Shown piece after piece: positions 4,939-53,034 of a stretch of DNA of 64,000 nt (position 1 is its first letter; each line of letters begins with the position of its first letter). Origin of the DNA: Branchiostoma floridae (lineage: Eukaryota > Chordata > Leptocardii > Amphioxiformes > Branchiostomatidae). The translations under genes and the position numbers were made by a program. The stretch covers positions 7,129,935 to 7,193,934 of the forward strand of contig NC_049994.1 of assembly GCF_000003815.2 (NCBI RefSeq), given 5' to 3'. The notes below the pieces were generated by a model, which made no database searches, was not told where the DNA came from, and saw only the letters and a program-made list of their open reading frames with translations.

Positions 4939-5053
4939 TCGATCAACATGGAGCATAACCACATCAACAAGATTCCGTTTGGCATCTTCTCTCGTGCCAA
5001 GTACCTGACCAAGCTGAACATGAAGGACAACCAGCTTACATCCCTGCCTCTAG
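4939..5053 (+). CDS. SHOC2: SHOC2 exon a (alternative ends to 5263)
   Basis: Acceptor TCTAACAG then [21 protein letters not shown]...NQLTSLPL plus one base of the Asp codon completed by the next exon. The first GTAAG donor is at 5054. Seven further identical or near-identical donors follow at 30-bp steps (5084, 5114, 5144, 5174, 5204, 5234, 5264), and the reading frame stays open through all of them. The end at 5053 matches the vertebrate protein without an insertion. Confidence 0.9.
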
Positions 5054-8000
5054 GTAAGGCACAGCTTACATCCCTGCCTCTAGGTAAGGCACAGCTCACA
5101 TCCCTGCCTCTAGGTAAGACACAGCTCACATCCCTGCCTCTAGGTAAGGCACAGCTCACATCCCTGCCTCTAGGTAAGGCACAGCTCACATCCCTGCCTC
5201 TAGGTAAGGCACAGCTCACATCCCTGCCTCTAGGTAAGGCACAGCTCACATCCCTGCCTCTAGGTAAGGCATCTGCACATGACATACCAGGCATTGTGTG
5301 GCGCAATTGGTAAGGTGTTTGACCCAGACCCCAGATGAAATGGGTTCAAGTGGAATTAGCCTGGATTTTGAGTGGAAAGCCTTTTGAAGTTGCAATGTTG
5401 CAAAGGTGTCCTGGGTCTCCTTGGAAAATTTTAAATCAGATTCTTAATCCTCTGAAGCACTATTTCCTGCATTTTGAGGGGCAAGCTTTGCAGGTAACGT
5501 AAGGTTATATTTTATTATAATGGTTTATTTGGCAAGCATGTCATACGAATCGCAGCCTTGCGGCTGAATTGAGGTAATGGCATTACATTCAGCACAGTTA
5601 TCACTTCATACAATATAAACGATACAATTCCTAGCACATTAAGATAAGAAGCAAGGTTTAAAATATCTATAAATGAATTACGCGATTAAAAACTAATATT
5701 GCACATTCAATTAATCGTGATTATCAAGGTTACCAGTTAATGGTCGAATTATGGAAAATGATTATTGTTATTAAATGCCTGGGCAGATTCAAATATTTAA
5801 CCCATTTGAAGAAACAGTAGTTTGTCTGCTAAAAAAGTGCATGGTAATTTATTTCTTCCCTTCATCTTTGGCTGCGCACCAGCATGTAATAATGGAGTAG
5901 TTGGCAGTGAATAATTGTTCTAGGGTGACCAATTAACGGTCACTTGAGTATTTCTCCTTGTAGTGCTCTACCTACAAGCACACATATTCAAACACTTGCT
6001 GCAAAATATTACGAAAGTGGTAAACAAACAAACCACAGTAAAATTTTTGTGTATTACCCCACCATCGCCTGCAGTAGTGCCATAGTGATGAATGAAGTTG
6101 GACCGCCGAATTTGGCTCAGTAGAACATCACGTAAAGTCGACCCGGACACCACAATCTTCCATGAAAATTGTGCAATATTCATTGCAAGGGTTTTCAATG
6201 TGAATAACACATTTATAGTTTTATTATTATTGACTAATTTTTGCATGGTGCACCTTGAAATGCAGTCATGTTGCTAACTGACCGTTAATTGGTCCTGCAC
6301 GTAAACTGGTACCTTACGTTAGACTCAGCTTGGTTTAACTAATATCTTTAGTTTACATGACAATTTTTGTCCGTCACAGAGGACGGAATGGCCAACATTT
6401 TTGTCCGTCCCCAGTTTCAAAATTCCGTCAAAGGACACTAGGACGGTCGCTGGCTAGAACCCTGCTTCAAACTGTACTATGTTACAATTTGAAACTACCA
6501 TATGTCGACTTGATTTCCATAAATACTCTCTTTCAAAAACAATGAACATACATATAGGTTGCCTTCAGATAAATTTGAACTACATGTAGCATCACACATA
6601 ATGAACATAACTACTAATGGTAGTTCACCTTTATCCGCATGATAACCTATATCCATTGTTTTAAAAAACCCGAATATTTAGGGATGTCTAGTCGACGGAT
6701 GTTGGTTTCAAATTGCAATATTTTCATAGCGACTTGACATCCCTAAATACTCTGATTTTGTATACAACAGAGAAAGGTTACCCTGCGGATAAAGGTGAAC
6801 TATCGTTACATAATGAACGTCTCTCTACAGATGTGGGGACGTGGGAGAACATGGTGGAACTGAACCTGGGCACCAACCAGCTGCAGAAGCTGCCTGAAGA
6901 CATTCAACATCTCACCAACCTGGAGACACTCATCCTCTCCAACAACCTGCTCAAGGTCAGGCATGGGGGAGGGGGGCAGAGGTTTACTCACTGTTACTAT
7001 ATAGTTTATGAACAAAGAAGGTCACTCTGAGGGGAGGGGGGATCCAGCATCGCACCCACCTGGAGACACTCATCCTGTCCAACAACCTGCTCAAGGTTAG
7101 ACATGGGGGAGGGGGACAGAGGTTTACTCACTGTTACTATATAGTTTATGAACAAAGAAGGTCACCCGAGGGGAGGGGGGCAGAAGTGGTTTCATCGTTG
7201 CTATATAGTTTATGAACAAAGAAGGTTACTCTGACAGGAGGGGGGGATCCAACATCTTACCAACCTGGAGACACTCATCCTCTTCAACAACCTGCTCAAG
7301 ATCACGCATAGGGGAGGGGGGCAGAGGTTTTCTCACTGTTGGTAATGAATATGGTTCATGAACAAGAAGTTCATTCTGAGGGGAGGGGGGCAGAAATCTG
7401 AATACAAACTTCAAGATATTGTCAAAAGGATCAATGAGAAATCCCTTTGTATTTCAACTAGAAAGACTTTCAGTAGAGCAAATTGACCTCAGGTTGCAGC
7501 TCATGATCAGTTGCCCATTTTTCCTTCTGTCTTACAAATGTAACGTAAGGTTACCAGTTTACGTGCAGGACCAATTAACGGTCAGTTAGCGACATGGCTA
7601 CATTTCAAGGTGCACCATGCAAAAATTAATCAATAATAAAGAAGCTCCATCTTAAGATTGGAATTCCGTTTTTCCCATTTTGAAATGTGCTAATATTTTC
7701 AATATAAAAGCACTTGGTGCAAAGTCTTTACATATGATTGACAAGTATGATGCACAGTTGTGAAATATGATAATAACTTTCATGAATATTCATTTTGAAA
7801 ATTTTCTTCCTGCAGGAATTCCTGCAGGAATTCCTGCAGGAAGCGTTTTTCCTGCAGGAATTCCTGCAGGAAGCATTTTTCCTGCAGGAATGCTGCAGGC
7901 ATTCCTGCAGAAATTCCTGCAGGAGAAAGGTAAATTCCTGCAGGAAGAATGTTTCCTGCAGGAATTTCTGCAGGAATGGCCTTATAATTCATATCTAAAT

Positions 8001-11000
8001 CAATGACACTAAGATAGGAGTGCTACACACCGGCAAAAAAGTATGCAACAAACGTTTTAGTAGTAGTTTCTCCTATTCATGCAACTTTTTCAACATATAC
8101 ATTTACATTTTGTACTACAGTTAAATGTAGAGTATAATCACACCCCGCGCAACATTTCTACCCCCAGTTCAACCTGTATGACCTCACAAGCGCCATGTTC
8201 TTGTTGACTGTCGACGCATCAAAAGCCAGCCAATTTCTCAACAGTTATCATATATAATATCAATGTCACTAAATCCTTCAAAATTATGAGGTAGTCTGGC
8301 AACATTTTGGAAGCACGACGTGTGCCCGACTCGGGGTGGTCGTGGTCGCAAGTTTGAGTTTAATCCGATTAAATGTGAACGCATTTTTTTAATCCAACAG
8401 AAAGCTTTAATCGGATTCCTCATTTAACTCACTTGTATTTTTTCATTTGAATGGGGTCCAAGTTGCCCATGACATGTTCAACAGTTGTGCCGACAGAGCC
8501 ATTACGGCTGTTCACACATGGGTGTTTTCATCAAATGAAAACTGCTCTATTCGAATGCTCCTTCCATGCATGCAATGATATCTTGTAAATGCAGTACCAA
8601 GTTGAACGTGGCAAAGAATGAAAGCTCCTTGGTCAGCAACTTGAGATTTGTTTGATCTGGTTGGTCATATTTTGACCATCATAAGATTAACACTTGAATG
8701 TTTGTTCCAGAGAATATTTCATAAAGTTTAAAATTGGGCCTAAGAAAGCCAGGGGCTTGCTTCCTCTTGTTGAAAATTCAAGTAAGTATGCGCTATTGTA
8801 ATGCGGGTTCAAAGTAAGGTCAGCTATTGTTCTATAGATATGCAAAGGATGCTGGTGTCCAATTATCAATTATCAAAGGACTAATTATTCCCCAGGTCCA
8901 AACATCCTGGCTACCTGTAGTGCTGAGGACCTAAGGCCTTCAGAAAGAATCCTGGAACTTGGGGGTACACTATTACAAGAAATTACAGACTGAAGAATTA
9001 CAGAATTTCAGAAACCTAAGTTCACTTTTACATTAATCTATTTAAATATGAAATGGTAAACCAAANAAGAAGCTCCATCTTAAGATTGGAATTCCGTTTT
9101 TCCCATTTTGAAATGTGCTAATATTTTCAATATAAAAGCACTTGGTGCAAAGTCTTTACATATGATTGACAAGTATGATGCACAGTTGTGAAATATGATA
9201 ATAACTTTCATGAATATTCATTTTGAAAATTTTCTTCCTGCAGGAATTCCTGCAGGAATTCCTGCAGGAAGCGTTTTTCCTGCAGGAATTCCTGCAGGAA
9301 GCATTTTTCCTGCAGGAATGCTGCAGGCATTCCTGCAGAAATTCCTGCAGGAGAAAGGTAAATTCCTGCAGGAAGAATGTTTCCTGCAGGAATTTCTGCA
9401 GGAATGGCCTTATAATTCATATCTAAATCAATGACACTAAGATAGGAGTGCTACACACCGGCAAAAAAGTATGCAACAAACGTTTTAGTAGTAGTTTCTC
9501 CTATTCATGCAACTTTTTCAACATATACATTTACATTTTGTACTACAGTTAAATGTAGAGTATAATCACACCCCGCGCAACATTTCTACCCCCAGTTCAA
9601 CCTGTATGACCTCACAAGCGCCATGTTCTTGTTGACTGTCGACGCATCAAAAGCCAGCCAATTTCTCAACAGTTATCATATATAATATCAATGTCACTAA
9701 ATCCTTCAAAATTATGAGGTAGTCTGGCAACATTTTGGAAGCACGACGTGTGCCCGACTCGGGGTGGTCGTGGTCGCAAGTTTGAGTTTAATCCGATTAA
9801 ATGTGAACGCATTTTTTTAATCCAACAGAAAGCTTTAATCGGATTCCTCATTTAACTCACTTGTATTTTTTCATTTGAATGGGGTCCAAGTTGCCCATGA
9901 CATGTTCAACAGTTGTGCCGACAGAGCCATTACGGCTGTTCACACATGGGTGTTTTCATCAAATGAAAACTGCTCTATTCGAATGCTCCTTCCATGCATG
10001 CAATGATATCTTGTAAATGCAGTACCAAGTTGAACGTGGCAAAGAATGAAAGCTCCTTGGTCAGCAACTTGAGATTTGTTTGATCTGGTTGGTCATATTT
10101 TGACCATCATAAGATTAACACTTGAATGTTTGTTCCAGAGAATATTTCATAAAGTTTAAAATTGGGCCTAAGAAAGCCAGGGGCTTGCTTCCTCTTGTTG
10201 AAAATTCAAGTAAGTATGCGCTATTGTAATGCGGGTTCAAAGTAAGGTCAGCTATTGTTCTATAGATATGCAAAGGATGCTGGTGTCCAATTATCAATTA
10301 TCAAAGGACTAATTATTCCCCAGGTCCAAACATCCTGGCTACCTGTAGTGCTGAGGACCTAAGGCCTTCAGAAAGAATCCTGGAACTTGGGGGTACACTA
10401 TTACAAGAAATTACAGACTGAAGAATTACAGAATTTCAGAAACCTAAGTTCACTTTTACATTAATCTATTTAAATATGAAATGGTTAAACCTAAAGGGTA
10501 AATCAAGGTTGTCTTTGTCAATTTAAAGGTAAACTATGAATAATTTTTCTTGAAGTTTTGTGAAAATTTGATGGTAATTGTGGACTCCACTTATAATAAG
10601 GTAATAAATAGACTGCTCAAACCAAGGAGGTTTAATATAGGCATCATGGAATGAAGTCAGCACCTCTGTGCCTAATTTCCAATCCAGCTGTGCCTTGCTC
10701 AATTTGCCCTTCAAGCTGCGTTACATTAAACAACTGCTCGCTATCAGACCCCCTTCTGTCAGTAATGACCATGGTAAAATCAGACCCGAGTGCTCGAAAA
10801 TAAAAGCTGGACTGCTTCTAGTTGGGGGGGCTACTTTCAAAGTTGGTCATTTGGTCGTTTGATACTACTGTTGCACAGTGACTATGACTGCTTCCCAAAA
10901 AACCTAGTGCAGGATGAAGACCCAAAAAAAGTTTGCTTTTGCCCAACTAGTGTAACAGTGGGTTCAAGTAGTTCCTACCGTCCTTGCTAAGGAGCTCTGA

Positions 11001-17000: not shown

Positions 17001-20000
17001 AAAGAAGTAACCATGCCCAAGCTTCTGTACTTCTGAAAAATATGAGTAGCCACTGAAGGAAATGCATTTTCTTGAAGTGAAGTTCATTCATAGGTCAGTT
17101 ATTTCTAATGCCAGGCATCTCCAGCAACAGTCAATAAAACTAGGAAAACAAAACAATAAAAAATGCCTCCATTATATATCTGTTTTATATACATAGTTAA
17201 AGTCAAGTCTGAAACATCTAATGAAATCTAATGCATTGTTTAACAGTTTCAAAACAAAATTAAATGCATAAAGAATGCTTCCTGTCATTGTCAAGGCCAT
17301 TCCTGCAGAAATTCCTGCAGGAAACATTCTTCCTGCAGGAATTTACCTTTCTCCTGCAGGAATTTCTGCAGGAATGCCTGCAGCATTCCTGCAGGAAAAA
17401 CGCTTCCTGCAGGAATTCCTGCAGGAAAAACGCTTCCTGCAGGAATTCCTGCAGGAATTCCTGCAGGAAGAAAATTTTCAAAATGAATATTCATGAAAGT
17501 TATTATCATATTTCACAACTGTGCATCATACTTGTCAATCATATGTAAAGACTTTGCACCAAGTGCTTTTATATTGAAAATATTAGCACATTTCAAAATG
17601 GGAAAAACGGAATTCCAATCTTAAGATGGAGCTTCTTAATAATAAAGCTATAAATGTGTTATTAACATTGAAAACAATTGCAATGAATATTGCACAATTT
17701 TCATGGAAGATCATGGGCCCTTGGTGCCTGGGTTGACTTTACGTGACGTTCTACTGAGGCAAAATCGGCAGTCCAACCTCATTCATCACTACGGCGCTAC
17801 TGCAGGCGATGGTGGGGTAGACACAAAAATTTTACGGTGGTTTGTTTGTTTACCACTTCTGTAATATTTTGCAGCAAGTGTTTGAATATGTGTGCTAATA
17901 GGCAGAGCACTACAGGGAGAAAGACTCAAGTGACCGTTAATTGGTCACCCTAGAACAATTCTTCACTGCCAACCTCTCCATTATTACATGCTGGTGTGCA
18001 ACTAAAGATGGAGGGAAGAAATAAATTACCATGCACTTTTTTAACAGACAAACTACTGTTTCTTCAAATGGGTTAAATATCTAATTCTGCCCAAGCATTT
18101 CAGAACAATAATCATTTTCCATAATTCGACCATTAACTGGTAACCTTACGNNNNNNNNNNNNNNNNNNNNNNNNNNNNNNNNNNNNNNNNNNNNNNNNNN
18201 NNNNNNNNNNNNNNNNNNNNNNNNNNNNNNNNNNNNNNNNNNNNNNNNNNACAAGTCCACAACCCGCAATTTGCATATTTTCGCGCGTACAAGTCCACAA
18301 CCCGCAATTTGCATATTTTCGCGCGTACAAGTCCACCACGAAATGTCGCAGGATGTCTGACATTTCTTGATCAACCTCAGGCGAACTCCAACAAGAAACA
18401 GCTGCGCGGCTGATTACAGTACCGTGCTCACCCCAGACGGCCATGAACTTGTGGGTCCTTAGTCTATCTGTTACCCTGGAAACCAGACTTGTAGTCAGCC
18501 AAGGCAGGTTTTCCCGAGGACCGGGGTTTTGTCATGCGGGGAGATTTGGCCGGGCCTAGCTAGTCCAGTATGGCTTTGAGCTATACCAGCTAGGGTCGCT
18601 AGAGAGTCAAATGAGGATGTAAATAGATATAGAGAGAGATAATGAAAGTATATGTGTGAGGGTAGGCAATCATACGAAAGAGATCCTGATTGCATATAAA
18701 TGTATACCTACATGTATTGGAGTTTGTAAATTAAAAAAATATTCCTATGAAAGAAAGTCAGAAGTACTTTATAACTTTGTATCATGTCGGATTGTCCCCT
18801 ACGCACGAAGTATTGACTTCAACTTCAGAAAAATAAATGGATGTCCACCATAACACATTCCAAGTCGACAGAGACTCCAATCGGGATCTTTCTTTTCTTT
18901 TTAAACTGTAAATTAGATTAGTATGCAGCTAATATCACTTTCTTTCTTTTTTCACGTTTTAGCACGATCTCGTTTGTGGTCGGAAATGGATGGGCAGTTT
19001 GGCACAGTCCATTTTTATGGTGGGCGTTTTGTTGGGAGCCGTCATTTTTGGCGACCTTTCTGACAGGTTTGTTTCGTGTTTATGATTGCATGTTTTCACC
19101 ACACAATATTTATCTCATTCTGTTTTATCAAATTTCCATCAATTTTCTTGTCGCACATATGGATGGCGTACACGTATGCGGGCCATATTTGGCCATGTTC
19201 TTTATAATAATTCTTGCGAATCTTTTTTTTACAGATTTGGAAGGAAAAAGATCTACTTTCTTTCCCTCTTCATCATGCTGGTGTTTGGTGTGTCGACGGC
19301 CTTCGCACACAACTACTGGCTCTTTGTATTCCTCCGCATGATCATTGGAGCAACGAACTCCGGAGTTTTCCTGACGGCCTTTGTGTTAGGTAAATTATGC
19401 ATATTCGCTGTACGATTTTTCATCACAAGACAGCTAGATTTTATACGTCACAGCTACAGCTGTCCTGAAAAATTCATCAGATTGCTGTCACAGACACGTA
19501 ATGCAACAAATGTGTCCATTAGCCATAACGTTGCACGCTTCGTTGAATACGTTGAAGTAAGAATTCGAAGCAAATCATGCAATGGTTAGCGCCCTCGTGC
19601 AATACATACAAAAACTGCAGAACGAAAAACGAAAACGTACGTGTCACACTCTCATACATTTTGTACACATACCAAATCAACACTTTACTGCTCAAGGATA
19701 AAACTAACATAAATTTTGTAGTTTTTTTATTTTTTATTTTTTATTTTTTTATATATGAAGGGATCTCAAACTCGTTCGTCTTAATTCATAGTTGATATAT
19801 GTTGTCTCTTTCTTTTCCAGCATCAGAGCTTGTTTCGCCCGACCACCGCACGCTGATCTCCATGTTCCTGGTGATATTTTTCGGGGTGGGAGGGATGATT
19901 CTGTCCCTGGTCGCCTATCTCATCCGGTACTGGGAGTGGCTTCAGCTGGCCATTTCACTGCCTAACGTCCTCTTCATTATGGTCTACTGGTGGTGCGTAA

Positions 20001-29000: not shown

Positions 29001-32000
29001 AAATACGAGGCCAAAACATGGCTAGATTGAAGCTTTTATCGTAGTTACACTCATCAAAGTCCACGTCGATTGTGAAGCAATCATTCAACTATCGTCTCCG
29101 GTAGCGCCTTCATGGTAGCGCGGAAATAGCGCGCTAAATTTCAGCTGCAAAAGTCACAAAGAAATCGCCGATAACCTTCTACAAAAATGGCTTCCGGCTG
29201 TGTACATGAAAACGAGGCTGTTCCCCGAAGTATGCCGGGGATTCCCCGGAGATTACGGAGAATTAGCGGATATAATCGAAGTTGACCCGAGAGTGTCCCG
29301 AAGTGGCACGACCGTGGCCGATCGTCTTTCTCCGGAAGGCTCGATCGTGGCCGATCGTCTTTTATGGGTTAAGATAAGTGTCAGCTACAGGGTAAGAGTA
29401 GCACAGGTTAGCTTTCTTATACAGATATAGAAACAAGGTCATTGAAAAGAGGAGGGGGGCGGAAGCCAGCTTGCCGTCATCTGTGGCTAAGAATGCCAGC
29501 ATGGGGCTATATGAAAATATGTCATATGCGTACTATGAAATATGTGATAAGCACTAGGAGGTATATCGTAGAGGTATGTCAATAAAAGTCCTCTGAGATA
29601 TATTCCCAAGGCCATGCTCAAGGTGTGGCTTACAACTTACATAATTGTCACCTTCAAGAAGTGCATGGTGTTCTTCCTTTATTAGATAATAACAAGACCA
29701 TTTTTCCCCAGCAAATTCAGACTCATTTTGTTGTTCACTGTAGTAGACACTCAATGTGGCCCCATGGCTGAGAAAAACAATAAAATGAAATTAGAAAAAT
29801 TAATAGAGTCCATTCCAAGACACCATGCGGATGTTTGTTGCCATTGTTTAGAATTGATTTTAAAGTTTTGTAATTATATGTCTAGGACATTTGATACTTC
29901 AGAAATATTTTTAACACTGTTTCAACTTTATAAATCTTTACCTGGTCCTGTAAAACTTTGGAAATATTCATGGTGTGGAATTGGATACTTCTAATGGTTT
30001 CTAAATAATGATAACAGCATTCTACCATTATTTACCATTTTCTACCATTTTCTACCATTTTTTGTAAATGGTTCGGTGGGCTGGGAAGATAGCAATTCAC
30101 ACATCCTTGCAAAGTATGGTTGGGTGCCACGCAACAATGGCCCACCACAAAGGATCCACCAGTGCCCAGCAGTGAAATCTAAAGATATACTGATGCAACA
30201 ATAGGGCTTACTTTTATGGGGGCAATAAACTAATTTTACCATTTGGCCAGGTTTACCATTTTTTGTAAATATTTGTAAATGTGAAATAATAACAGAGAGG
30301 TTTCACAATTATTCTAAATAAAGATATTTTTGTACATTTACTTTCAAAATGTTTCTAAAATATTCAAAGAAATTCAAATAAATGAGTATTTTCTTAGTCA
30401 TTTTTTTGAAAATAATTTAATTATTGTGGCTCAGATATTCTTTTATTCAAAATAATTCAGACTAATTATAAATATCGCCTAAAAACCCTCATGGTGTCTT
30501 GGAATGGACTCTATGATAACAAATTAAAAACAATAAAGTAGGAAACAAAACAGGTGGTAATCATCTTTACAAGTAGTCTTGATTAATAAAAAGCAGTAAG
30601 CAATAAAATATGGATCATATGTCATTAGCTTGGTTGTACTAATTACAGAATATAGTCTGAAGTACTTTTAACTTCCTTAAGTTTGCCAAGAATGTTGGTT
30701 ATGTTTTAGGTTTGTGTATTTAGTGTTTGTTTGTGTTTGTGCGTTAGTGTACATGACTGTGTCTGTCCGTCAGTCCATCTGTAGACAGCAAAACTTGAGT
30801 GTAGATGAATCCTTCTAATATTTGGTATATACACAACATATACATGTAGGTGGGAAGGGTTAGGGAAAACAAACGTCATGTTAGATAATGGGCCTCCTAG
30901 CAGCTTTCCATATTACTGCAGTTTGATATGTCATAAAAGGTTTATATTTGTATACCTACCTACCTACCTAGGCTTTTGACCTCCAGGTCGTTGGGGGGAC
31001 AAGGTAGCCATGAAGAAAGAACCTTGTTCTTCCTTTTTGCAAGTTTTGACCTGAAAATAATGCTAACTCATCCTGTGTTTTGTTTACTTCAATGTCCAAC
31101 AGAAGCTGCCCCGTGGCATCGGCAACCTCAGGATGCTGCGTGTTCTGGATCTAGAGGAGAACAGGCTGGAGTCCCTGCCGACAGAGATAGGTTAGAACTT
31201 AAATCACTATATTTTCAGAAACATGTAGCAAGTATTGTCAAAAGTCTATCTCCCCAACCTGACATTATTATAGGATTTTCAAGGTTACTGTATACTTGAT
31301 AAAGTTTGGTCAGAATGTTTCCATAATGGGAACTCCAGATTTTCATTTTATTGCTGAGACAAGACAGCAGGAAAACTTTATCAAGTAAGCAGCTTACTTT
31401 GCATATGATATAACCTGGATGTTTATGATAAAAAAAACATTCATTAAAAAGTTATGAATGCATTTTCAAATGCAGTCCAAAAAGATTTGGTATTGAATAG
31501 GATAGCTAAAGTATAAAGTATAGATTGAATTTAATACAGATTCTTAAATCAACGGTTTAAACTGTTAACAGACTGAAATATAGGACGTCTGTTAGAAAAA
31601 TTTGCATAACTGCTTAGAATTCCTTTTTTTCCCATCACTCAGAGTCAGAATTGTCAGATTAAAAATTTTATCTCCCTTGCATCAGCCAACCAGAAATGAA
31701 GGCTTGATTTGGCATGGTCGGTCGAGTAAACAGAAAAATTTGTTGTTGTTTTCCCCTGGTCTTACAAGCCTTTTTTGACCTTTGTTGGTGGCCTTTACTT
31801 ATCATTATCATCAGTTCGGGTTTCAATAATTATCTTTCCATGATAGTTTTTCTTCATTGCCTTATGATGAATCCTCAAAACAGTGTAGTACACACAAAAG
31901 TGTACACGTGTATGTTACCGTAAATCTGGAAATATTCATGCTGTCAGTAGTTTCATTTCAAAGTATCTGGCCTTCATTGTTCCCCTCCGTATACATGTAA

Positions 32001-35000
32001 CACCGCAATGTATACATTTTTGTACAGTAATGTTTAGACCGCAAACTTCAAACACAGCAAACTTCCATCTCCTGCTGCAAATTGAAATCCCTGCTAAAAT
32101 AAACATTTTTTACAGTATTTAGCTATCTACAATGTACACCAACTTGATTCAAGAAGACCTTCCAGATGTACACAGTAGTGACATCATAGCCTTTCTGCCA
32201 AGGATTGATGTTGTTTTGACTGAAACCAAGAACAATACCTCACAAATTTGCATGGGGTTTGGTGTGTCCTTGAAACAGTCACAGTGACAGATCTGTTATC
32301 TTGAAAATCACAAGCTGGGATAAAATGTGCATCTGGACTTACCTAGACCTTTTTTTTTTTGCCAAACTTTTTTTTACATTATGTTACAATTTTAAGACTT
32401 TATATCCGTGCACAAAATAAAGTGCTTACCAACAAGCTTTCGATCAGTCCTCTGATCCTTCTCAAGTTGAAATGACCCAACACCTAAGTCACATATCCGG
32501 AACGGAAGTGTGACATCAGCAAAGGGTCAAAGGTGCTTGGGAGTCGGTATCGGCCCCCGTCTCGGTTGAGGGAAGGTTTTTTTTTTACATGCTTACATTA
32601 CGGTTCCCAGATCTAGAGAATTCCACATTGTGTCGACATTTTTAAAAGAATACCCTTTTTCTAGAAGTCACATAACACTATGGAGAGAACTAGCTGCTTG
32701 TGTGATATCATTGAAGGTTGACCAGTATCATTGAAGGTTGACCAATATCATTGAAGGTTGACCAATATCATTGAAGGTTGACCAATATCATTGAAGGTTG
32801 ACTGAACTTGAATGTATTTTTCCTACAGCATACTTGAGGGACTTGAACCGACTGGTGGTCCAGTCCAACCAGCTGACGACCATGCCCCGAGCGATCGGTC
32901 ACCTGACCAACCTGACGTACCTGGGTGTGGGGGAGAACAACCTACAGCAGATTCCAGAGGAGATAGGTGGGTGGCGTACAGTCAAAAAGTCCTTCCCACG
33001 CATTATGGCACATAGGGCGGTGCCCATCTCCGTTTCAGTAGCCCTAGTCCACACAACTTTGTGCAATCACTACAGCAGGGGGCTAGTCCACTGGTAGTGG
33101 CATGTATTCAATATCCATACTCTTTCTCGAATGCTGAGTGCTAAGCAAAGAGAGTAGTATGTACCATTTTTTAAAGTCTTTGGTATGACTTTTTTTTTTG
33201 GTATGACTCGGCCGGGGATTGAACTCATGACCTACCCAATGCAAGGTGAACACTCTACCCACTTGGCCATTGCACCAATGACATAATTGTGCATACAAAA
33301 CTTTTAACCTACAGCAAAGAGGTCCACCTCTTAAGTGAGACAGCAGTGTATTTTGCTTGTGACCTAGAGGTCTTTGATTTAAATCCTACTGTGTTGATGA
33401 TCTTGTGCCCTTGGGAAAGGCTTCCTCACTTCACTCAGGAGAAAATGAATAATTACCTAGTCTTGGCTGTAGTGGTGTCCCCTGGATAAGACGCTGAATC
33501 AAGGTCCCGTGTTTGGGGAGAGCCACACCCCACACGTTAAAGAACCCACCACACCTTTCGAAAAGAGTAGGGGCACGTTCTGGTGTGTGATGGTGCAAAT
33601 CCTTTTCTGGAGTTGGCAGTATGATGGCACCTGGTGGAATTCTGAAAGAAGAAGCTCATGTGTTTTGCCAAAGGGCAGTTATATGAGTGGCTCATAAGAA
33701 GACTTGTACACTTACTTAGATGAAGTAAAATGGCTAAATTGCAGGAGAACTGTAGAGTGAGACCCTGGGTTGTGTTTGGGAGGGAGCAAAACAATTAGCA
33801 GCAATGAAAAAATGAAGTACATTGACAGACATAATGACAGTAAGTTGTTGTTGTTGTTTTATCTTTTTGCTAAAAGCCAAGAGTATAATTGATCATCGTA
33901 CTTCTTCAGAAACATCATAGTTTTTAATTGCAAGAATGATCACGTTTAAGCTCAAGTCTGGCCCTGACCTGTTGCCGCGAACCCAAATCAAACAAATCTA
34001 TCAGTGCCCCCATCTTGGAAATGGTCGCCGTCGTGACAAGAATGAAGTCAACTCCCTACTTCAGAGTAATTTGTCCCCCAGATGAACTTACATTGTTGAC
34101 TCAGCAAATGGTGGGACACAAACTTCGTCATTATAGTGGGGCCCTTGTTTTTGTTTGGTTTGGTGTCATAATGATGATTCAGCAGCTTTGCTTAGTGTGA
34201 CTCAATACTGTACGAATATGTACTGTACGAATGTTGTCATGTGATGATGAGTTGTGTTTTGCTTGGTTAGGACAGAAAACCATAATACAGCACATGTTTG
34301 TTTACATCAAACAAGCCGGTATACGGCTTTCAAAAATTTGTGTAGAGCTTGAAATATGTATGACGTATAATATTATGGCTTGATTTTCATTAAAGATGAC
34401 CTTGGGAAAGAGAAGTTTATGCAAATTATGGGTCTTAAAGGCCAAATCTTTCAAGATTATTGACTTTTGGGGATAAGGGATCAACTAAACATGTACATGT
34501 ACACAAACTTTCTGTTATACGTGTAACACTGCACGTTTCACCTGTCAGAAATGTAAGAAATGACTGGAAACTTTTTACATGCAATATCCTTGCCATTCCA
34601 ACAAATTAAACATTTCTTTTGGGTACATACATGTAGCTACGATCTTAAAGCCCCTTGCAATTCAGGATTTTGTATACACAGTATGTTTTCGAATTAAGTA
34701 AGCACTCTTTAAACTGATTCAAAGAAAAGGTGCTACAATTTGTTGCCTAAAGTCAGTTATCCATAGATAAATGGAATAATAGAGCAATGTGGTGCTACAC
34801 TTCTACACTTTGTGGGATGAAAAACTATGCTGTAACTATAAAGTCCACCACAGTGATGGACCGAAAAGAGGTGGAGGATACAAACTTAGTCTGGGATTTT
34901 GTTCTCACCTCCAAAGCATATACATGCAGTGGCGAGAAGCAGTCAGAAAAGTCTTAGGAAGACGCTTGATAGACATTGAAACGTAAGCTTCTTCTAAAAC

Positions 35001-41000: not shown

Positions 41001-43749
41001 AGGTTATTACTTAAACTTAAGTGGTGCACCCAAAATTTTTGCACCTAATCCCAAAAATGAATTTCGAGCCCTGAAAGCTCAAATGAAATATCTCCAACCC
41101 TACATGTTTTAATAGTTTCATAATTGCCTAAATTCATTTATTGTTTTTTCATCGTTTTGTATAAAAAGCAAGTTTTTGATTGATTTTGAATTATCAAAGT
41201 TGTACAATAGATGTGGGAATTGTACATCATGTGACTTTCCGAGCCTCACAGACAAATATGCTACAAACACAATATACAAAAAATTAGATACCAAAGGAAA
41301 GTATGTTTTTGAAGGATGATTTTTTTTAGCATAGGTTTTTGCTTTTAATGGGTAAACTTGTTCCCTAGCAAGCGTGGCCAAGAGACATGTTTTTGGCATA
41401 ACCCCTGATGTTAAGACTACGTTTTCATTATGCCATTATGCCAAATTTCGTGCTTTTATCGCTGTTGTATATCACCTTAAGTTGCACAACGTATTGTTTT
41501 TGTTATGCATTACGCAATTTGTCCTTAAATGCAAACACAGGTAGTTATTTGTACCTAATTTTGCAACCAAACTGCAATTATGCAATCCTCTGAGCTATTT
41601 TAACTCCATCAAAGCTCTATAGGCAAACACTGGAACTGATAATTGTGCTCTGTAACTCACTTGTCAGCAAGTTGTCCACCCGTAAGGTTACTTCCCAATC
41701 TAGCCCATTGTTATGGCTGGATCAAAGTTCTTCCTTTATTTGTTCGGTGTTGACACACAAGTTCCTATTCCAATAGACAGAAGTTATCAGTCTTTGTGAC
41801 AGAGTAGACTTTGTAACAATTGGTCTTTTTCAATAACAAGTTCAACAAGCATTTAGAAATGGAACTTTATTTCTATTTTATTTTTCATAAGAAATATAGA
41901 AATATAATGTATTTTCATCACTTTACCCTAAAAAATGGGATCCTTGTTAATGTTATACTAAAACCTCTAATTAGCCCTTATAGATGACATTTTTGTAATC
42001 TATTGTGCAAGATACAAATTAAGTCAAGTGATCATAAAAGATTATTTAACAGTTGATACATCCATCTATCTATCTATCTATCTATCATCAACCTAACCTA
42101 CGTATTCAATGGCTAATTTTGTTTAGCGAATACATACAATGTAGAAACTGACAAAATGATACCCCCCACAGTGTAACTGGTACAAACCAGTGGTACCACT
42201 TGTTGCCTGACCAATGATGTCACAGCATAAGAATCAATTTTAAGATGGGGGTCTCTGATTGGTCAATGTCGTTTGGCTACAAAAAATGATAACTCAATGT
42301 GGGAGCAACCATCTGTCCTCAGCAACCATTTTTGCTCTGTCCCTTGAGTGGTTGCTAATCAGACAGGTTTTACAGTATGATGTTGATTAGGGGTGTTGTT
42401 TTTTTTCTGTAGGACTGTTTTTTCTTGTTAGACTGGTTCAGAAAAAACTGACCTAAAAAAAATCATTGGACCAGATCTTCTGTATCTGTATCTATATAGC
42501 CGGTATAACCGCCCTTCAGCGTAACACACCAGCTTCACAGGCATGCGGCGCAGCAGCAGCTGGTTGTATTACACCAAACGACTCGTTACACCTGACTTTT
42601 GCACATCTATCTGCAAGCGTTCTTCAAAACAACCCAGAGAAGATGCCCCTACTGTACTTGGTGATAACAAATTCCACTCTACGATCTTGGACCAAATAAA
42701 AAATTAACAGATTTTACCGACAGGCGTTCAAGTGTTTAGGGGCTTACAAGTCTAAGAAAATAACAGGAGCAAAGTGGTGGAGTTTCTACAGTCAAACTTG
42801 CTCTAAAAGTTAAAAGCAGTCTGAGGCAGTTGATATTGTTAACTATTGAAGATGATATTTGAAAATGCCAATGGACGTCAGATACTCCACCAAACAGAAT
42901 CCTTTGTGTCGAAGAAGTAAACCATAGTAATTGTTTTAGGCATCGCCCATTCACATGTTTTCACAGATCATTTGGTTCAGGTTCAGGTCTGGGATCCTCT
43001 GGACCTGTACCATGCCTGTACTTGAATTTTCTGTACCGGTACCCACCCCTTATGTTGATGTGAATTCCTATGTTCTCAGGTACATTGGAGAACCTTGAGC
43101 AGCTGTACCTGAACGACAACACCAACCTGCACAGCCTGCCCTTCGAGCTGGCCCTGTGTGGTAACCTCCAGATCATGAGCATCGAGAACTGTCCCCTCAG
43201 TCAGCTGCCCCCAGAGATAGTCAGCGGTGGACCATCCCTTGTCATCCAGGTTAGACTAGTTGTTGTTATTCTTTTTCTAAGTAATATGTTAATTAGCAAA
43301 AGCCAAATGTGATATAATATATGTTCTTTATGGGAAAACATATTGTTTTTGTTGGTGTGTTCTTCTGTCATGAACCAATCAGAGCTTAGAACTGCTGATA
43401 TTTCAAGTCCCCTATTTCCTCTGTTCTTTTTATACCAATGTAGCAAGGTGATTTCCTCAAAAGGAACGCTACCAGTAGTTCACCTTTATCCGTGGTGTAA
43501 CCTATATCTGTTGTTTAAGAAAATAGTGTTTTTAGGGATACAAGTCAACGGGTGGTGGTTTCAATGTAGTGTTTCAACTTATGACAGTTTGAAACCTCCA
43601 TTCATCAACTCGATGTCTCTAAATACCTTGTTTTTAAAAACAACGGATATAGGTTACCCCACATATAAAGGTGAACTTAGTGTTGAATATTTTTTCCTGT
43701 TCCCCAGTTTCTGAAAATGCAGGGTCCATACAGACAGATGGTGGCATAA
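4939..43749 (+). CDS. SHOC2: SHOC2 leucine-rich repeat protein, C-terminal 225 codons in six exons
   Basis: Exons 4939-5053 (first possible end), 6831-6955, 31103-31190, 32829-32966, 43080-43249 and 43708-43749 join in phase with AG/GT borders and end at TAA. The product is a run of leucine-rich repeats that follows vertebrate SHOC2 closely, including [50 protein letters not shown] and the terminal [12 protein letters not shown]. By family knowledge SHOC2 is a cytosolic scaffold that, with MRAS-GTP and PP1 catalytic subunit, removes an inhibitory phosphate from RAF kinases. About 580 residues are expected, so the N-terminal 60 percent is missing: no upstream exon was found in 1-4938. Odd points are the tandem 5' splice sites of the first exon, partial copies of the second exon's end, and other genes inside the introns. 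The protein assignment is very secure; the exon-to-exon linkage crosses two assembly gaps. Confidence 0.93.
5032..5271 (+). repeat. eight tandem 30-bp units duplicating an exon end and its 5' splice site
   Basis: Each unit encodes [10 protein letters not shown] (one copy GKT) and contains CTCTAGGTAAGG, the exon/intron border of SHOC2 exon a. Units differ by one or two bases. 30 bp equals ten codons, so every donor leaves the phase unchanged. Confidence 0.97.
5290..5380 (+). repeat. tRNA-like sequence, probable SINE head
   Basis: TGGCGCAATTGGTAAGG resembles a pol III A box and GGGTTCAAG a B box about 40 bases on. No complete cloverleaf, so it is read as a tRNA-derived SINE rather than a tRNA gene. 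Confidence 0.4.
5497..6319. mobile_element. TA-flanked MITE (family ACGTAAGGT), with a nested insertion
   Basis: The ends ACGTAAGGTTACCAGTT and, inverted, ACGTAAGGTACCAGTTTACG are flanked by TA on both sides (5495-5496, 6320-6321). Length is about 605 bp without the nested insertion. Near-identical sequence, inverted, lies at 7543-7638 plus 17645-18150. No transposase. The TA duplication suggests mobilisation by a Tc1/mariner-type enzyme. Confidence 0.8.
5508..5725 (-). mobile_element. short retroposon insertion within the MITE
   Basis: 218 bp flanked by direct repeats AAGGTTA (5501-5507 and 5726-5732) interrupt the MITE terminus. One end is AT-rich (TATTTTATTATAATGG). This fits a 5'-truncated LINE or SINE copy in minus orientation; the family is not known. 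Confidence 0.6.
6621..6802. mobile_element. MITE (family TAGTTCACCTTTATCC), copy 1
   Basis: Inverted termini TAGTTCACCTTTATCCG / GGATAAAGGTGAACTA and inverted inner arms around TTTAGGGATGTC. Second copy at 43476-43678. This copy ends 28 nt before SHOC2 exon b. Confidence 0.8.
6831..6955 (+). CDS. SHOC2: SHOC2 exon b
   Basis: Acceptor CTCTCTACAG, then AT completing the split Asp codon, [20 protein letters not shown] and onward to SNNLLK, with donor GTCAGG. It corresponds to the LRR that follows exon a in the vertebrate protein. A 182-bp MITE ends 28 nt before the acceptor, and partial copies of the exon's 3' end lie at about 7061 and 7266. Confidence 0.92.
6913..7400 (+). repeat. tandem copies of the 3' end of SHOC2 exon b and its intron start
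   Basis: CCTGGAGACACTCATCCT plus AACAACCTGCTCAAG recurs at 6919, 7059 and 7264, each followed by related G-rich intron sequence and CTATATAGTTTATGAAC. Copy 2 keeps a donor-like GTTAGA, copy 3 has lost it (GATCAC). The two extra copies lack the exon's first half and an acceptor. Confidence 0.85.
7804..7983. repeat. TTCCTGCAGGAA palindrome array in the left TIR
   Basis: About ten copies of the 12-bp palindrome TTCCTGCAGGAA or close variants, singly or fused, separated by short A/T-rich spacers. Open frames reading LQEFLQE arise from the repeat and are not genes. The same array is at 9232-9411 and, inverted, at 17293-17472. Confidence 0.9.
9068..10490. repeat. exact second copy of 7640-9062, offset 1,428 bp
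   Basis: From AGAAGCTCC onward, the sequence repeats 7640-9062 with no difference that I could see, starting just after the single n at 9066. The first copy ends with small indels (GGTAAACCAAAN against GGTTAAACCTAAAG), like poor contig-end sequence. Confidence 0.9.
11000..11075 (+). repeat. tRNA-like sequence, probable SINE head
   Basis: GTGACAGCGGTAGCGTACTGG resembles an A box region with a five-pair anticodon stem following, and GGTTTGAATCC is a good B box. There is no matching acceptor stem, so it is not called a tRNA gene. Confidence 0.5.
11400..12110. repeat. degenerate repeats with CATTTCCTGCATTTT core
   Basis: Four spaced copies of a block like CTGGACC...CTGAAACGC...TTTCCTGCATTTT...GGCAAATTTTGC near 11530, 11710, 11860 and 12055. 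One more copy lies outside the element near 5450-5493. Intervening short ORFs are not conserved. Confidence 0.5.
12117..12310. repeat. degenerate tandem repeat (GTAACGATTAACGGTGAATTA)
   Basis: Five or six imperfect units containing TAACGCTTAACGGTGAATT or close forms. No coding sense. Confidence 0.65.
12380..12455 (-). repeat. tRNA-like sequence, probable SINE head
   Basis: On the minus strand AGCTTGAGTGGTAAATG (A box-like) and GGTTAAAATCC (B box-like) are spaced as in a tRNA, followed by TGGGAGCC as in the copy at 11000. Inverted relative to that copy. Confidence 0.45.
12976..14534. mobile_element. 1.56-kb TIR element with subterminal repeats
   Basis: Termini GGGACTGTACGATATTTAT and, inverted, GGGACCGTACGATATTTAT are flanked by TTA (12973-12975, 14535-14537). 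Inside each end are three or more copies of GGGGGAGGGCCATGTTAATT or variants. The interior has no intact transposase; it holds a G/C hairpin-like stretch GGGGGGCTTTGCCCCCC near 13208. Confidence 0.75.
15083..15400 (-). pseudogene. LINE remnant, C-terminal zinc-finger-like tail
   Basis: The minus-strand frame reads [20 protein letters not shown] then [16 protein letters not shown], the C-x2-C...H...C pattern found after the reverse transcriptase of many non-LTR retrotransposons. The frame is broken around 15180-15280 and no upstream domain remains. Confidence 0.7.
16706..16812. repeat. small imperfect palindrome with perfect core hairpin
   Basis: AAAAGTACTGTAC (16748-16760) and GTACAGTACTTTT (16768-16780) are perfect arms with a 7-nt loop. 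Outer arms GATAATAGGATAA / TTATCCTATTAG extend it. Likely a tiny MITE. Confidence 0.6.
18151..18250. other. assembly gap, 100 N
   Basis: A run of exactly 100 N, the usual placeholder for a gap of unknown size. The left side ends at a MITE terminus and the right side starts in a tandem repeat. Confidence 0.99.
18251..18336. repeat. 38-bp tandem repeat at the contig edge
   Basis: Two full units and a start of a third (ACAAGTCCACAACCCGCAAT then TTGCATATTTTCGCGCGT). More units may lie in the gap. Each unit contains ATTTGCAT and TTTCGCGC. Confidence 0.85.
18340..18960. other. no exon recognised upstream of the SLC22-type gene
   Basis: I searched for the expected TM1 and extracellular-loop exon and saw none. 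Only short ORFs without resemblance. Confidence 0.4.
18963..23906 (+). CDS. SLC22-type organic ion transporter (MFS), N-terminus missing
   Basis: Ten exons join in phase: 18963-19066, 19235-19389, 19821-19992, 20395-20539, 21087-21178, 21652-21786, 22096-22175, 22848-22956, 23477-23686, 23828-23906 (TGA), giving 426 residues. SLC22 marks in order are [19 protein letters not shown], the MFS loop motif [27 protein letters not shown] at the start of the cytoplasmic loop, and [20 protein letters not shown] then [11 protein letters not shown]. Members are plasma-membrane carriers of organic cations, anions or carnitine; the substrate cannot be read here. The product covers about TM2 to TM12 and a charged tail. 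TM1 and its large extracellular loop (about 110-130 residues) are not seen between the gap at 18250 and 18963, so they probably lie in the gap. The gene sits within the span of SHOC2 on the same strand, but on a contig bounded by unsized gaps. Confidence 0.9.
20814..21063. mobile_element. MITE (family AAGGTGGTATCTCAC), copy in SLC22 intron
   Basis: Inverted ends AAGGTGGTATCTCATGC / GCAGTGAGATACATGTCCCA, with inner blocks CGAACCCCACAGTG and TTCAGAG/CTCTGAAATT shared with copies at 36973-37231 and 60150-60390. It ends 23 nt before the exon at 21087. Confidence 0.85.
22336..22616. mobile_element. MITE (family TTTATGTCATACCT), copy 1
   Basis: Inverted ends ATTTATGTCATACCT / GGGTATGACATAAAT. The 280-bp body is about 90 percent identical, inverted, to 47950-48220. 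It lies in the SLC22 intron 22176-22847. Confidence 0.85.
22617..22690. repeat. palindromic repeat GCCCGACCGCGGGTCGG, copy 1
   Basis: ATACAACACGGTGTATTCC followed by GCCCGACCGCGGGTCGGATT, directly next to the MITE. The related copy at 47868-47949 also abuts a MITE of the same family but in the opposite relative orientation. Confidence 0.7.
23379..23448. mobile_element. minimal palindrome of the AAGGTGGTATCTCAC family
   Basis: AAGGTGGTATCTCACTGCAC and its inverted partner meet directly at TGCACCGGTGCCC with almost no interior. It ends 28 nt before the SLC22 exon at 23477. Confidence 0.85.
24800..24805 (+). promoter_or_regulatory. probable polyadenylation signal of the SLC22-type gene
   Basis: AATAAA about 0.9 kb after the TGA at 23906, at the end of a stretch with no other coding signal. 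A 3' UTR of this length is plausible. Confidence 0.4.
24899..25054. repeat. tandem duplication, two units of about 85 bp
   Basis: CTACCAGGGGTCGCAGTATA through GTGGCACACAATATATATGT occurs twice (from 24907 and 24989) with one difference seen in the shared 70 bases. Confidence 0.9.
25050..26998. repeat. 97-bp direct repeats bracketing 1.75 kb
   Basis: 25050-25147 and 26902-26998 (TTTATTGGCAGGCATTC and onward to TCCGCGATAATTGAATAAG) are direct copies with few changes. The space between holds a MITE (26389-26601) and a 155-codon minus-strand open frame (25534-26001) with no recognisable domain. An old LTR-like or dispersed repeat pair. Confidence 0.6.
26389..26601. mobile_element. MITE (family TACTGTAAAT...TTCGCGG), copy 1
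   Basis: Inverted ends TACTGTAAATTCAGAAATG / GCATTTACAGTA with repeated inner blocks ACCACCGCGAACA and its complement. Related copies: 31917-32117, 52554-52679, 57245-57437, 60760-60968. Confidence 0.8.
27570..27750. repeat. tandem repeat, unit about 60 bp, three copies
   Basis: GGACCACCTGACCATTGATA then TACAGTCAAATCTGTACAA, repeated three times with drift. Confidence 0.8.
28042..28141. other. assembly gap, 100 N
   Basis: Exactly 100 N. It closes the middle contig (18251-28041) that carries the SLC22-type gene. Confidence 0.99.
28142..29030. other. no gene recognised
   Basis: AT-rich sequence with several GTACATGTA motifs. No exon or repeat structure that I can support. Confidence 0.4.
29060..29360 (+). 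promoter_or_regulatory. CpG-rich patch, possible promoter or 5' exon
   Basis: Unusually many CpG for this region. GCGCGGAAA and GCGCGCTAAA lie near 29120, then ATGGCTTCCGG in a good start context at 29187. The frame from there stops after 32 codons, and an overlapping frame stays open longer without family resemblance. CGTGGCCGATCGTCTTT occurs twice. It may be the promoter of an unidentified transcript. Confidence 0.3.
29803..30514. mobile_element. element with perfect 25-bp inverted ends
   Basis: ATAGAGTCCATTCCAAGACA plus CCATG at 29803-29827 is repeated inverted at 30490-30514. The interior is AT-rich with repeated TACCATTTTCTACC. No transposase. Confidence 0.65.
31103..31190 (+). CDS. SHOC2: SHOC2 exon c
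   Basis: Acceptor TGTCCAACAG, then [20 protein letters not shown] and RLESLPTEI plus one base of the next Ala codon, donor GTTAGA. One full LRR, continuing directly from exon b (LLK joined to KLPRG) although the two lie 24 kb and two gaps apart. Confidence 0.92.
31917..32117. mobile_element. MITE, diverged TACTGTAAA family
   Basis: Ends TTACCGTAAATCTGGAAATA and AACATTTTTTACAGTA, with weaker inner similarity to the family at 26389. Confidence 0.5.
32706..32802 (+). repeat. 20-bp tandem repeat, five copies, next to a 3' splice site
   Basis: ATCATTGAAGGTTGACCAAT five times, ending 26 nt before the SHOC2 exon at 32829. Confidence 0.95.
32829..32966 (+). CDS. SHOC2: SHOC2 exon d
   Basis: Acceptor TTTCCTACAG, then [20 protein letters not shown] and onward through [20 protein letters not shown] to EI plus one base, donor GTGGGT. 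Two LRRs. A 20-bp tandem repeat ends 26 nt before the acceptor. Confidence 0.92.
33177..33286 (-). mobile_element. tRNA-derived SINE
   Basis: The minus strand starts TGGTGCAATGGCCAAGTGGG (A box), then GAGTTCAATCCCC (B box), and ends in an A run (T run at 33189-33198 on plus). Confidence 0.75.
33310..33640 (+). mobile_element. SINE with conserved central domain
   Basis: A B box-like GATTTAAATCC near 33376 is followed by CCCTTGGGAAAGGC and TTCCTCACTTCACTCAGG, then GAGAGCCACACCCCACACGT and TAAAGAACCCACCAC. The block pattern recurs inverted at 39625-40080. This resembles widespread tRNA-derived SINEs of deuterostomes. Confidence 0.6.
33650..34980. other. intron sequence, no gene recognised
   Basis: Short ORFs without resemblance; nothing structured that I can support. 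Confidence 0.4.
34985..35823 (+). mobile_element. 5'-truncated LINE with reverse transcriptase C-terminal region
   Basis: One open frame (from about 34990; Met at 35005, stop at 35490) reads [32 protein letters not shown] and [12 protein letters not shown]. This is the thumb/C-terminal part of a non-LTR reverse transcriptase of the L2/CR1/RTE type. A non-coding tail follows and ends in ATCAAATCAAATCAAAG, a short 3' repeat typical of CR1-like elements. The catalytic part is absent. Confidence 0.85.
35830..36970. other. intron sequence, no gene recognised
   Basis: No exon or structured repeat that I can support. Confidence 0.4.
36973..37231. mobile_element. MITE (family AAGGTGGTATCTCAC), copy
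   Basis: Ends AGGTGGTATCTCACTGCACT / GCTGTGAGATACCACCTTT. It shares inner blocks with 20814-21063 and 60150-60390. Confidence 0.9.
37757..37803 (+). promoter_or_regulatory. TATA-like box with upstream palindrome, promoter of the secreted precursor
   Basis: TATTTAAA lies at 37796-37803, 49 bases before the ATG at 37852, which would place transcription start near 37825-37830. A perfect inverted repeat, CTTGTCAGCT / AGCTGACAAG with a 3-nt spacer (37757-37779), contains a CAGCTG E-box. A GGCGGGAAA motif lies further up near 37457. Promoter function is inferred from spacing only. Confidence 0.5.
37852..38517 (+). CDS. secreted precursor with a Cys-loop peptide, neuropeptide-like
   Basis: A 221-residue ORF without introns. 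The chosen Met is the second in a longer open frame that begins at 37627. It is preferred because it opens with a clear signal peptide ([20 protein letters not shown]) and lies about 50 nt after a TATA-like box. Right after the signal comes a short segment with only two cysteines, CYPPWAASC, ending in RR before [18 protein letters not shown], which itself ends in KR. Both are typical prohormone convertase sites. The rest is charged and Ser/Gln-rich, with a basic amphipathic C-terminal part ([20 protein letters not shown] then LLRLIEY) and no further cysteine. The layout suggests a peptide hormone or neuropeptide precursor. A peptide placed just after the signal with one small disulfide loop recalls elevenin-type precursors, but the spacing differs and I do not claim homology. 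It lies in the SHOC2 intron 32967-43079, same strand. Confidence 0.7.
   Translation: MKLVGRMLAFLVCASLCVAGRTGGPSIGYNCYPPWAASCQRSSTGLRRDVSLYERLWPSVVDQDKRVPKSSEDSNGQFLKGSGLPSGEQGSLDREGQTLFETRDEMQQSDNRKNVLLRMQLQRWMEEKAQRKLNSQSALPSPSAELADDTAKDGILTGLYNRGKAFLGRYWAPLNLTSRPRKMSGLVSRLLKNIADKLKDQKRSEVSQDSVVQRLLRLIEY
38518..39620. other. AT-rich region after the secreted precursor gene
   Basis: Probably includes its 3' UTR. No canonical AATAAA close to the stop was found; no other gene seen. Confidence 0.35.
39625..39735 (-). mobile_element. SINE fragment with tRNA-like head
   Basis: On minus, TGGGTAGAGTTGTTCACAT then GGGTTTGAATCCC (B box), followed by ATCTTGGGGGAGCACTATTT, the central block also seen at 33390. 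Confidence 0.6.
39850..40080 (-). mobile_element. SINE copy with conserved central domain
   Basis: On minus, TTGCCAAGTGACTAAAGG (A box region), CACAGGTTTGATTCCTC (B box), then TGTCTTGGGAGAGGCACTTG and CCCTCCACCCAGGGG. Confidence 0.65.
40781..41073. mobile_element. MITE with CAGGGCTCGAAAT ends
   Basis: Inverted ends CAGGGCTCGAAATAC / GAATTTCGAGCCCTG and internal GGGTGCACCC blocks. Flanked by the direct repeat AAAGC (40776-40780, 41074-41078). The ends resemble hAT-type non-autonomous elements, although those usually make 8-bp duplications. Confidence 0.8.
42060..42088. repeat. (ATCT)n microsatellite
   Basis: Five to six ATCT units. Confidence 0.95.
42480..42692 (-). mobile_element. LINE 3' tail, copy 1
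   Basis: Over 85 percent identical to 50200-50410. The 3' end on minus is marked by repeated ATACAG units (TGTATCTGTATCTATATAGC on plus). Possible target duplication TTGGACCA near both ends. Confidence 0.75.
43080..43249 (+). CDS. SHOC2: SHOC2 exon e
   Basis: Acceptor TGTTCTCAG, then [20 protein letters not shown] through [15 protein letters not shown] to GGPSLVIQ, donor GTTAGA. It carries the last LRRs and the start of the C-terminal cap, close to the vertebrate sequence. Confidence 0.93.
43476..43678. mobile_element. MITE (family TAGTTCACCTTTATCC), copy 2
   Basis: Same termini and inner arms as 6621-6802; 29 nt separate it from the last SHOC2 exon. Confidence 0.8.
43708..43749 (+). CDS. 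SHOC2: SHOC2 terminal coding exon
   Basis: Acceptor TGTTCCCCAG, then [13 protein letters not shown] and TAA. The 13 residues match the conserved SHOC2 C-terminus with one extra Ala. A MITE of the same family as the one before exon b ends 29 nt upstream of the acceptor. Confidence 0.92.
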   Translation, partial: FLKMQGPYRQMVA

Positions 43750-51890: not shown

Positions 51891-52553
51891 TTTGTCTCAC
51901 ATACTTGCCATCTTTTCCCTATAGAAGAAGCTTTGATTTCCAGTCGTCAGGTCGAGCTGTCACGGGATTTGGGCAAAAATATGCGACAGTAAATTATGAC
52001 GATGTTTACAGGACACTTCTGTGCAGCAAAGTGGAGGCGAACTTTAACCTTTGCTCTATGATGGAGTGTACCATTTTCCTGTAGAGGTGCTAGGTCAACT
52101 TGAAAAAAAATTCCTATGGTAGTGGTGGGTCGGGTTCACATAACATGATGATGATCAATGACAAATACATTTATACCGAAACAAGTAGGTGATAACGGTT
52201 AGGATAGTATATAATAAGACTATTGTGATGAAAAAAGTGATGATAGTAGTTCCGTTTTCTTGCGCGTGCAAAGAGTTTATAAAAATTAGCGTTTATTGTC
52301 TGTTTAAGACTTGAATGATTTACATGTATGAGGAATTTTTTTGAGCTCAAATAGTGTATCTTACAATCCCACTGGTCTGGTTTTATTATTTATTTTTTTT
52401 TTTATATCAAAATAATTTATAAAATCTTTGCAAAACTATTCTTTGGAAAACTATTGAATTCCTGACTTTTACTATACAACTAAAAGTTTAGAAAATTTAG
52501 TTTCTTTCCATTAACGTTATTACCTGCAACTGCCAATGAGTTTTTGCTTGCAC

Positions 52554-52679
52554 TACCGTAAAAGGGAAAATGTTCGCGATAGTTTTATGTCCGCGGTTTT
52601 CGAGGTATGCTAACCTCTTTGGTCTTTTTCTTTCCTACTCCCTTTTCCCAGCAAACTTTTTTTTTTTCCTTTTACAGTA
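52554..52679. mobile_element. MITE, TACTGTAAA family, between the divergent TRIM-type genes
   Basis: Ends TACCGTAAAAGGGAAAA / TTTTCCTTTTACAGTA with inner GTTCGCG and CCGCGG. It lies in the shared 1.1-kb intergenic region. Confidence 0.65.
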
Positions 52680-53034
52680 TAACTCTATCAGTATCACATC
52701 GCCTGTTATTGCATGACATTTTGCATGCGCAAGTCATACGTTCCCACAGAAATATGTGGTGGGCGTGTCAACGCTTTGCCACATGTTATACGCAATCGGG
52801 GACAAAGCTGAAGTCTTCGCTACAATTGTTTCAATGATAGTTAAGTTAAATAGCTTTTAGATAATACATGTAACGTTATGATATGATCCATTAATTGTTT
52901 TTCATTGACGAAATGTCACTGATTTTGCATTCTGTGTCCACAGACACCCACTCCCGTTAGTTTCAGGTTGTCGAATGGTTAATCCCCGAAAATGTGGTCT
53001 ATGAACTTCACCCATACAGAAAAAATATATCAAG

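Follow-up and report, generated by a model that had tools for sequence, protein, structure and literature searches.

Lancelet genomes are known to carry minisatellite-like duplications of exon-intron boundaries, called mirages after those of Adh3 (PMC3087553). In the excerpts of the globin paper considered here, mirages reportedly leave regular splicing intact and are unstable in length, with somatic variation at Adh3 and 2 BflGb6 haplotypes of 6 and 3 units; they are proposed as a source of new introns, and their AG/GT signals are described as potential cryptic sites (PMC3087553). Within the literature consulted, amphioxus mirages are described in the excerpted globin paper only, which names further loci (PMC3087553); the PGBD5 paper contains no mirage description, and the consulted sections of the amphioxus huntingtin paper mention tandem repeats without describing boundary repeats. 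The array described here, located at an exon end of a probable SHOC2 gene, is most likely another instance of this kind of repeat.

The array lies within the analyzed window, a stretch of 64,000 nucleotides from Branchiostoma floridae, in a gene that is probably the lancelet SHOC2. Exon A, which carries the array, matches human SHOC2 chains in the PDB over one full-length stretch (E from 4.6e-25 to 1.4e-24); a designed leucine-rich-repeat protein ranks above them in the PDB search, its 2e-26 being a sum over 6 stretches. Exons were placed by tblastn, with human SHOC2 serving as the query, and by reading of the boundaries (Table 1). When joined, exons A to E form a single open frame, and the SHOC2 C-terminal exon was found downstream, at 43708, and left unjoined. 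The 5.5 kb preceding the window match residues about 89 to 358 of human SHOC2 by tblastn, with 5,324 bp separating the end of the last match from exon A, and the leucine-rich repeats follow the human SHOC2 order across the upstream matches, exon A, exons A to E, and the C-terminal exon. The gene identity named in the original prediction is upheld. The intron before exon A is about 5.3 kb long (counted from the previous tblastn match) and the one after it 1,777 bp. No local duplication was found around exon C (30900–31400) or exon E (42900–43500). A nested transporter gene may lie in the B–C intron (19086–20626, forward strand): of the 4 frames tested in the 19.1–23.7 kb region, 2 resembled MFS/Sugar_tr weakly, without reaching the curated cut-offs. 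Downstream of SHOC2, frames for RING, B-box, and NHL domains (TRIM-like) are present on both strands (48755–58687).

Table 1. Exons and tandem arrays of the SHOC2 locus, in window positions; a slash marks a splice boundary.
Feature	Position	Strand	Description
SHOC2 exon A	4939..5053	+	38 codons and 1 base; acceptor ...TTTTCTAACAG/TCG; first donor CTCTAG/GTAAGG
Array	5032..5271	+	30 bp x 8 over the exon A/intron boundary; every AG/GT doubles, by score, as a 3' splice site
Downstream flank	5272..5313	+	Extended frame ends at the stop 5311–5313
SHOC2 exon B	6831..6955	+	tblastn, boundary reading
Second array	6905..7395	+	Three units over the exon B donor, shifts 140 and 345
SHOC2 exon C	31103..31190	+	tblastn, boundary reading
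Third array	32705..32802	+	20 bp x 4.9, purely intronic, off the boundary; 26 bp between its end and the acceptor of exon D
SHOC2 exon D	32829..32966	+	tblastn, boundary reading
SHOC2 exon E	43080..43249	+	tblastn, boundary reading

Tandem Repeats Finder (TRF) resolves the exon A array into 8.0 copies of a 30-bp unit with 98% matches, in agreement with the eight-unit array that had been predicted to end a SHOC2 exon, and the 30-bp periodicity stops at both array edges, being absent from the flanks. The ten-codon, 30-bp unit of the prediction also holds, whereas its proposed composition of 23 coding bases plus GTAAGG does not: the unit consists of 22 exon-end bases and 8 intron bases (...CCTCTAG/GTAAGGCA). 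Variation is confined to 2 columns, with CTTAC in units 1 and 2 and CTCAC in units 3 to 8, and with GTAAGA in unit 3 and GTAAGG in the remaining 7 (a difference at position +6); the donor context, which was expected to be identical in every unit, is so in all units except the third. The donors follow positions 5053, 5083, 5113, 5143, 5173, 5203, 5233, and 5263, and all 8 join exon B (6831) in frame, without adding a stop and with the G/AT split codon for Asp kept, as had been foreseen. Due to the stop that ends the extended frame, intron retention would truncate the protein. A 28-base unit pattern allowing up to 3 mismatches has 8 matches, all inside the array, and none in 100 shuffles, and the 301 bases at 5000–5300 match a single place in the whole assembly, which comprises 513,431,437 bases in 431 contigs. 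The units were judged to have expanded recently, as originally proposed. Overall, the earlier account of the anatomy of the array was almost exact; it overlooked the 3' splice-site quality of every unit. RNA and DNA folding of the units and the array gave stabilities not above those of shuffled sequences (z from −0.69 to 1.11). The stretch just 3' of the array (5299–5360) has the look of a tRNA-like B box (GGTTCAAGT), perhaps of a SINE; since the scans of the window for tRNAs and Rfam families (ARAGORN, Rfam) returned no match, this likeness is an impression only.

Tandem repeats span 2 exon-intron boundaries of the gene, that between 5053 and 5054 and that between 6955 and 6956, and it is this trait that defines mirages. 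The exon B array is older and decayed. Its donors read AAG/GTCAGG (6955), AAG/GTTAGA (7095), and AAG/ATCACG (7300, with the GT lost); since a stop precedes the second, which does not keep the frame, and the third lacks GT, only the first can yield full-length SHOC2. Neighboring introns of SHOC2 thus carry arrays of different age, displaying expansion and decay together in one gene. Among the 11 SHOC2 boundaries in the window, 2 fall inside one of 19 TRF arrays (P 0.06–0.08) and 3 lie at most 30 bp from one (P 0.02–0.04). The 19 arrays result from manual merging of 33 TRF rows, and the enrichment is weak and was picked after looking. Other repeats in the window include 3 arrays of the palindrome TTCCTGCAGGAA (7807–7924, 9235–9352, and 17352–17469), 2 of which are copies within a 1.43-kb duplication, and a 57-bp x 3.2 array (27570–27749) crossed by reading frames on both strands.

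Multiple donors in close succession are a general phenomenon of the host genome. Three AGGTAAG motifs with 8 to 38 bases between them gave 1632 overlapping matches (902 + 730) in 513 Mb, compared to 252 (120 + 132) for the reversed-pattern control. The matches listed include at least 23 clusters, all on C1 and reaching up to about 32.4 Mb, of which 20 were fetched. Three clusters (C1 near 9.48, 20.22, and 29.24 Mb) were left out, being parts of one dispersed repeat common to them; its units hold several AGGTAAG motifs and a U-rich tract, and it is perhaps a mobile element with splice-site-like arrays. In at least 5 of the 20 fetched clusters, the frame closing at the first donor is a recognizable exon. 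The exons of INO80 (PDB, E 1.5e-40) and kynurenine 3-monooxygenase (KMO; PDB, E 1.1e-19) end at the first donor and are aligned to their last residue, as is that of TMEM237 (Pfam, 94.6 bits, cut-off 28.1); a cytochrome P450 exon (33.8, cut-off 22.8) is aligned to residue 57 of 58, and the fifth encodes an ephrin-receptor-like domain (26.6, cut-off 23.1). A sixth candidate is the upstream frame of cluster L028, which resembles a TPR exon (PDB 1.6e-7), its 18.7 bits falling short of the Pfam cut-off of 25. The Pfam scan covered all 30 upstream open reading frames of 20 or more amino acids (L030, L038, and L040 having none) and 20 of the 23 downstream ones; matches above the curated cut-offs were found upstream of 4 of the 20 clusters and, as a control, downstream of 1 (L032, OTU), with weak sub-cut-off matches on both sides. 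The 4 versus 1 is a trend only, and the exact alignment ends at the donor weigh more. PDB searches for clusters L024, L033, and L027 returned no match, and some of the remaining clusters may be plain minisatellites. Very long donor arrays occur in L024, L028, and L041, with 49, 56, and 25 AGGTAAG motifs, respectively, and the 31-bp units of L041 have strong acceptor scores.

If extra donors were commonly used, their spacing would be expected to keep the frame. The 20 clusters show no such preference: in 3 of them every donor keeps the frame, and in 8 the second donor does so, with one third expected by chance. Furthermore, when hypothetical units of 10 to 80 bp were placed over the 5 SHOC2 donors in the window (11,845 units), 33% were multiples of three and 25% were both in frame and open. 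Thus, the preserved frame of the exon A array is weak evidence of function.

All splice-site scores are relative to human matrices. On this scale, the unit donors score 10.04 bits (9.13 in unit 3), placing them at the 99.4th to 99.7th percentile of 3884 GT sites. In exon-defined minigenes with 2 identical donors, the upstream one was used exclusively, and shorter exons were preferred; among human near-equal donor pairs, the upstream donor wins in 60% overall, with exon-defined events favoring the upstream and intron-defined events the downstream donor (PMC9225289). By contrast, Reed and Maniatis, as cited in the same paper, observed a preference for the intron-proximal donor (PMC9225289). Depending on the donor, exon A would measure 115 to 325 nt. 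Because the long flanking introns favor exon definition, we predict that the donor at 5053 is the one used.

We consider it likely that the exon A array is a mirage, one of many in this genome, in which the first donor is spliced and copies 2 to 8 are intron. A short segment over the exon A boundary would have undergone repeated tandem duplication into a minisatellite, the copies presumably arising through slippage or unequal exchange. They would be tolerated, with exon definition favoring the donor nearest to the exon's own acceptor, and copies 2 to 8 would become ordinary intron. Internal excision from one AG/GTAAG to a later one would recreate the GTAAG donor in place, so that the choice of a distal donor would tend to be erased, and mRNAs with 10 to 70 extra residues would be minor.

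The alternative put forward originally, SHOC2 isoforms with 0 to 70 additional residues, is possible but not favored. Here, the 8 donors would be true alternatives, placing 0 to 7 ten-residue inserts after LPL in one leucine-rich repeat, one of the inserts being a sequence variant, with the copy number differing between animals. The strength of all 8 donors and the stop-free frame that they share speak for it, and human boundary repeats are often accompanied by repeat-retaining transcripts: for 66% of the intron modifications in human genes carrying variable tandem repeats, there is also transcript support for the exonic repeat (PMC2812944). When the extended exon was modelled from a single sequence with AlphaFold2, each ten-residue unit formed one strand, although at low confidence (mean pLDDT 64.5), and the model carries no claim. 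Nevertheless, published mirages are reported to be spliced regularly (PMC3087553), minigenes used the upstream donor only (PMC9225289), a unit that is in frame and open has a 25% chance, the 20 other clusters lack a frame preference, and the exon B array is out of frame. Long inserts could also be costly, since PP1C is held through the ascending loops of almost every SHOC2 repeat, and MRAS mainly by repeats 2 to 10 (PMC9452295). We therefore regard the isoforms as unlikely. Assembly artefact, either of the array or of its copy number, is an exceedingly improbable explanation. The window does contain N runs near 18151 and, flanking one N at position 9066, two copies of a 1.43-kb stretch (7639–9065 and 9067–10495; 99.86% identity), an arrangement suggestive of overlapping or allelic sequences having been joined during assembly; however, the units are not all identical, their variants are ordered along the array, and arrays of this sort are numerous in the genome. 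At 240 bp, the array is also shorter than the common sequencing read.

The third alternative concerns the AG of each unit, which scores 9.48 to 9.50 bits as an acceptor (98.8th to 98.9th percentile among 3699 AG sites, a set that contains the units) and exceeds 5 of the 6 real SHOC2 acceptors. By score, all 8 units thus fuse a strong acceptor to a strong donor, a trait of ratchet points, and the array might be a ratchet-like string removed mainly by recursive splicing, with the next unit supplying the donor of the recursive-splicing exon. Drosophila ratchet points require a downstream exon (PMC8605326), for which the next unit could provide the donor, and 2 fission yeast genes have introns within 24-nt repeats, although one EST contradicts an annotated intron (PMC3629103). 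The 13 pyrimidines among 16 positions in the unit are matched or exceeded by only 1.9% of 3694 AG sites, among them the units themselves; the end of exon E, however, is equally pyrimidine-rich without an array. Furthermore, the branch-like A of CTTAC or CTCAC lies merely 15 nt before the AG, and direct splicing at 5053 would give the same mRNA. Of the 20 other clusters, just L037 (7.5) and L041 (8.8) attain a median of 7 bits for the acceptor, indicating that the fused acceptor-donor is particular to SHOC2 and a few others rather than general. Recursive splicing as the main removal route is therefore very doubtful, although the array could, judging from its signals, erase its own copies by internal or recursive splicing. 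A broader conjecture holds that the array varies in length and that its copy number tunes, in a core RAS-pathway scaffold, this self-erasing splicing together with the dose of SHOC2 lengthened in ten-residue steps, and that hundreds of exon ends with multi-donor arrays in this genome form a reservoir for new introns and isoforms; it is improbable.

Collectively, the array and its donors, the decayed exon B array, the published mirages, the 1632 versus 252 matches, the first donors at exon ends, the lack of frame preference, the minigenes, and the long introns make a mirage the most likely explanation. Against the use of the first donor stand the preference of Reed and Maniatis, the human figure of 60%, the remark on cryptic sites, the 66% of human intron modifications, the short distance from branch to AG, and the human origin of the splice matrices. 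Near-identical donors at 30-nt steps amount to a natural experiment on 5' splice-site choice, in which exon definition predicts the first donor and intron definition the last, and the genome-wide excess of arrays allows existing RNA data to be used for addressing this choice in numerous genes in parallel. The SHOC2 units with their acceptor, in turn, can reveal whether internal splicing erases boundary repeats and whether such repeats feed intron gain.

Juxtaposed acceptors and donors are shared with the ratchet points of Drosophila (PMC8605326); these, however, sit within long introns, whereas the 8 SHOC2 copies, known from sequence, begin at an exon edge. As in the introns gained by tandem duplication in a potato gene (PMC4974935) and in fission yeast (PMC3629103), the copies carry donor and acceptor signals, but in SHOC2 they sit at an existing boundary and no new intron is shown. 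The internal repeats of human segmental duplications are similar in their units, which average 30 bp in about 4 copies, in their location, in some cases, at exon-intron boundaries, and in their link to novel introns; unlike the SHOC2 array, they belong to recent human paralogues, in which repeat-retaining transcripts are common (PMC2812944). With the mirages of Adh3, BflGb6, and BflGb9, the SHOC2 array shares repeats that span a boundary, many units with AG/GT, and homogenized inner units, the Adh3 units measuring 10 to 72 bp (PMC3087553). It differs from the published mirages in its gene, in its 8 in-frame donors at 30-nt steps, and, when compared with mirages as the excerpted globin paper describes them (PMC3087553), in that each of its units is a strong 3' splice-site-like element.
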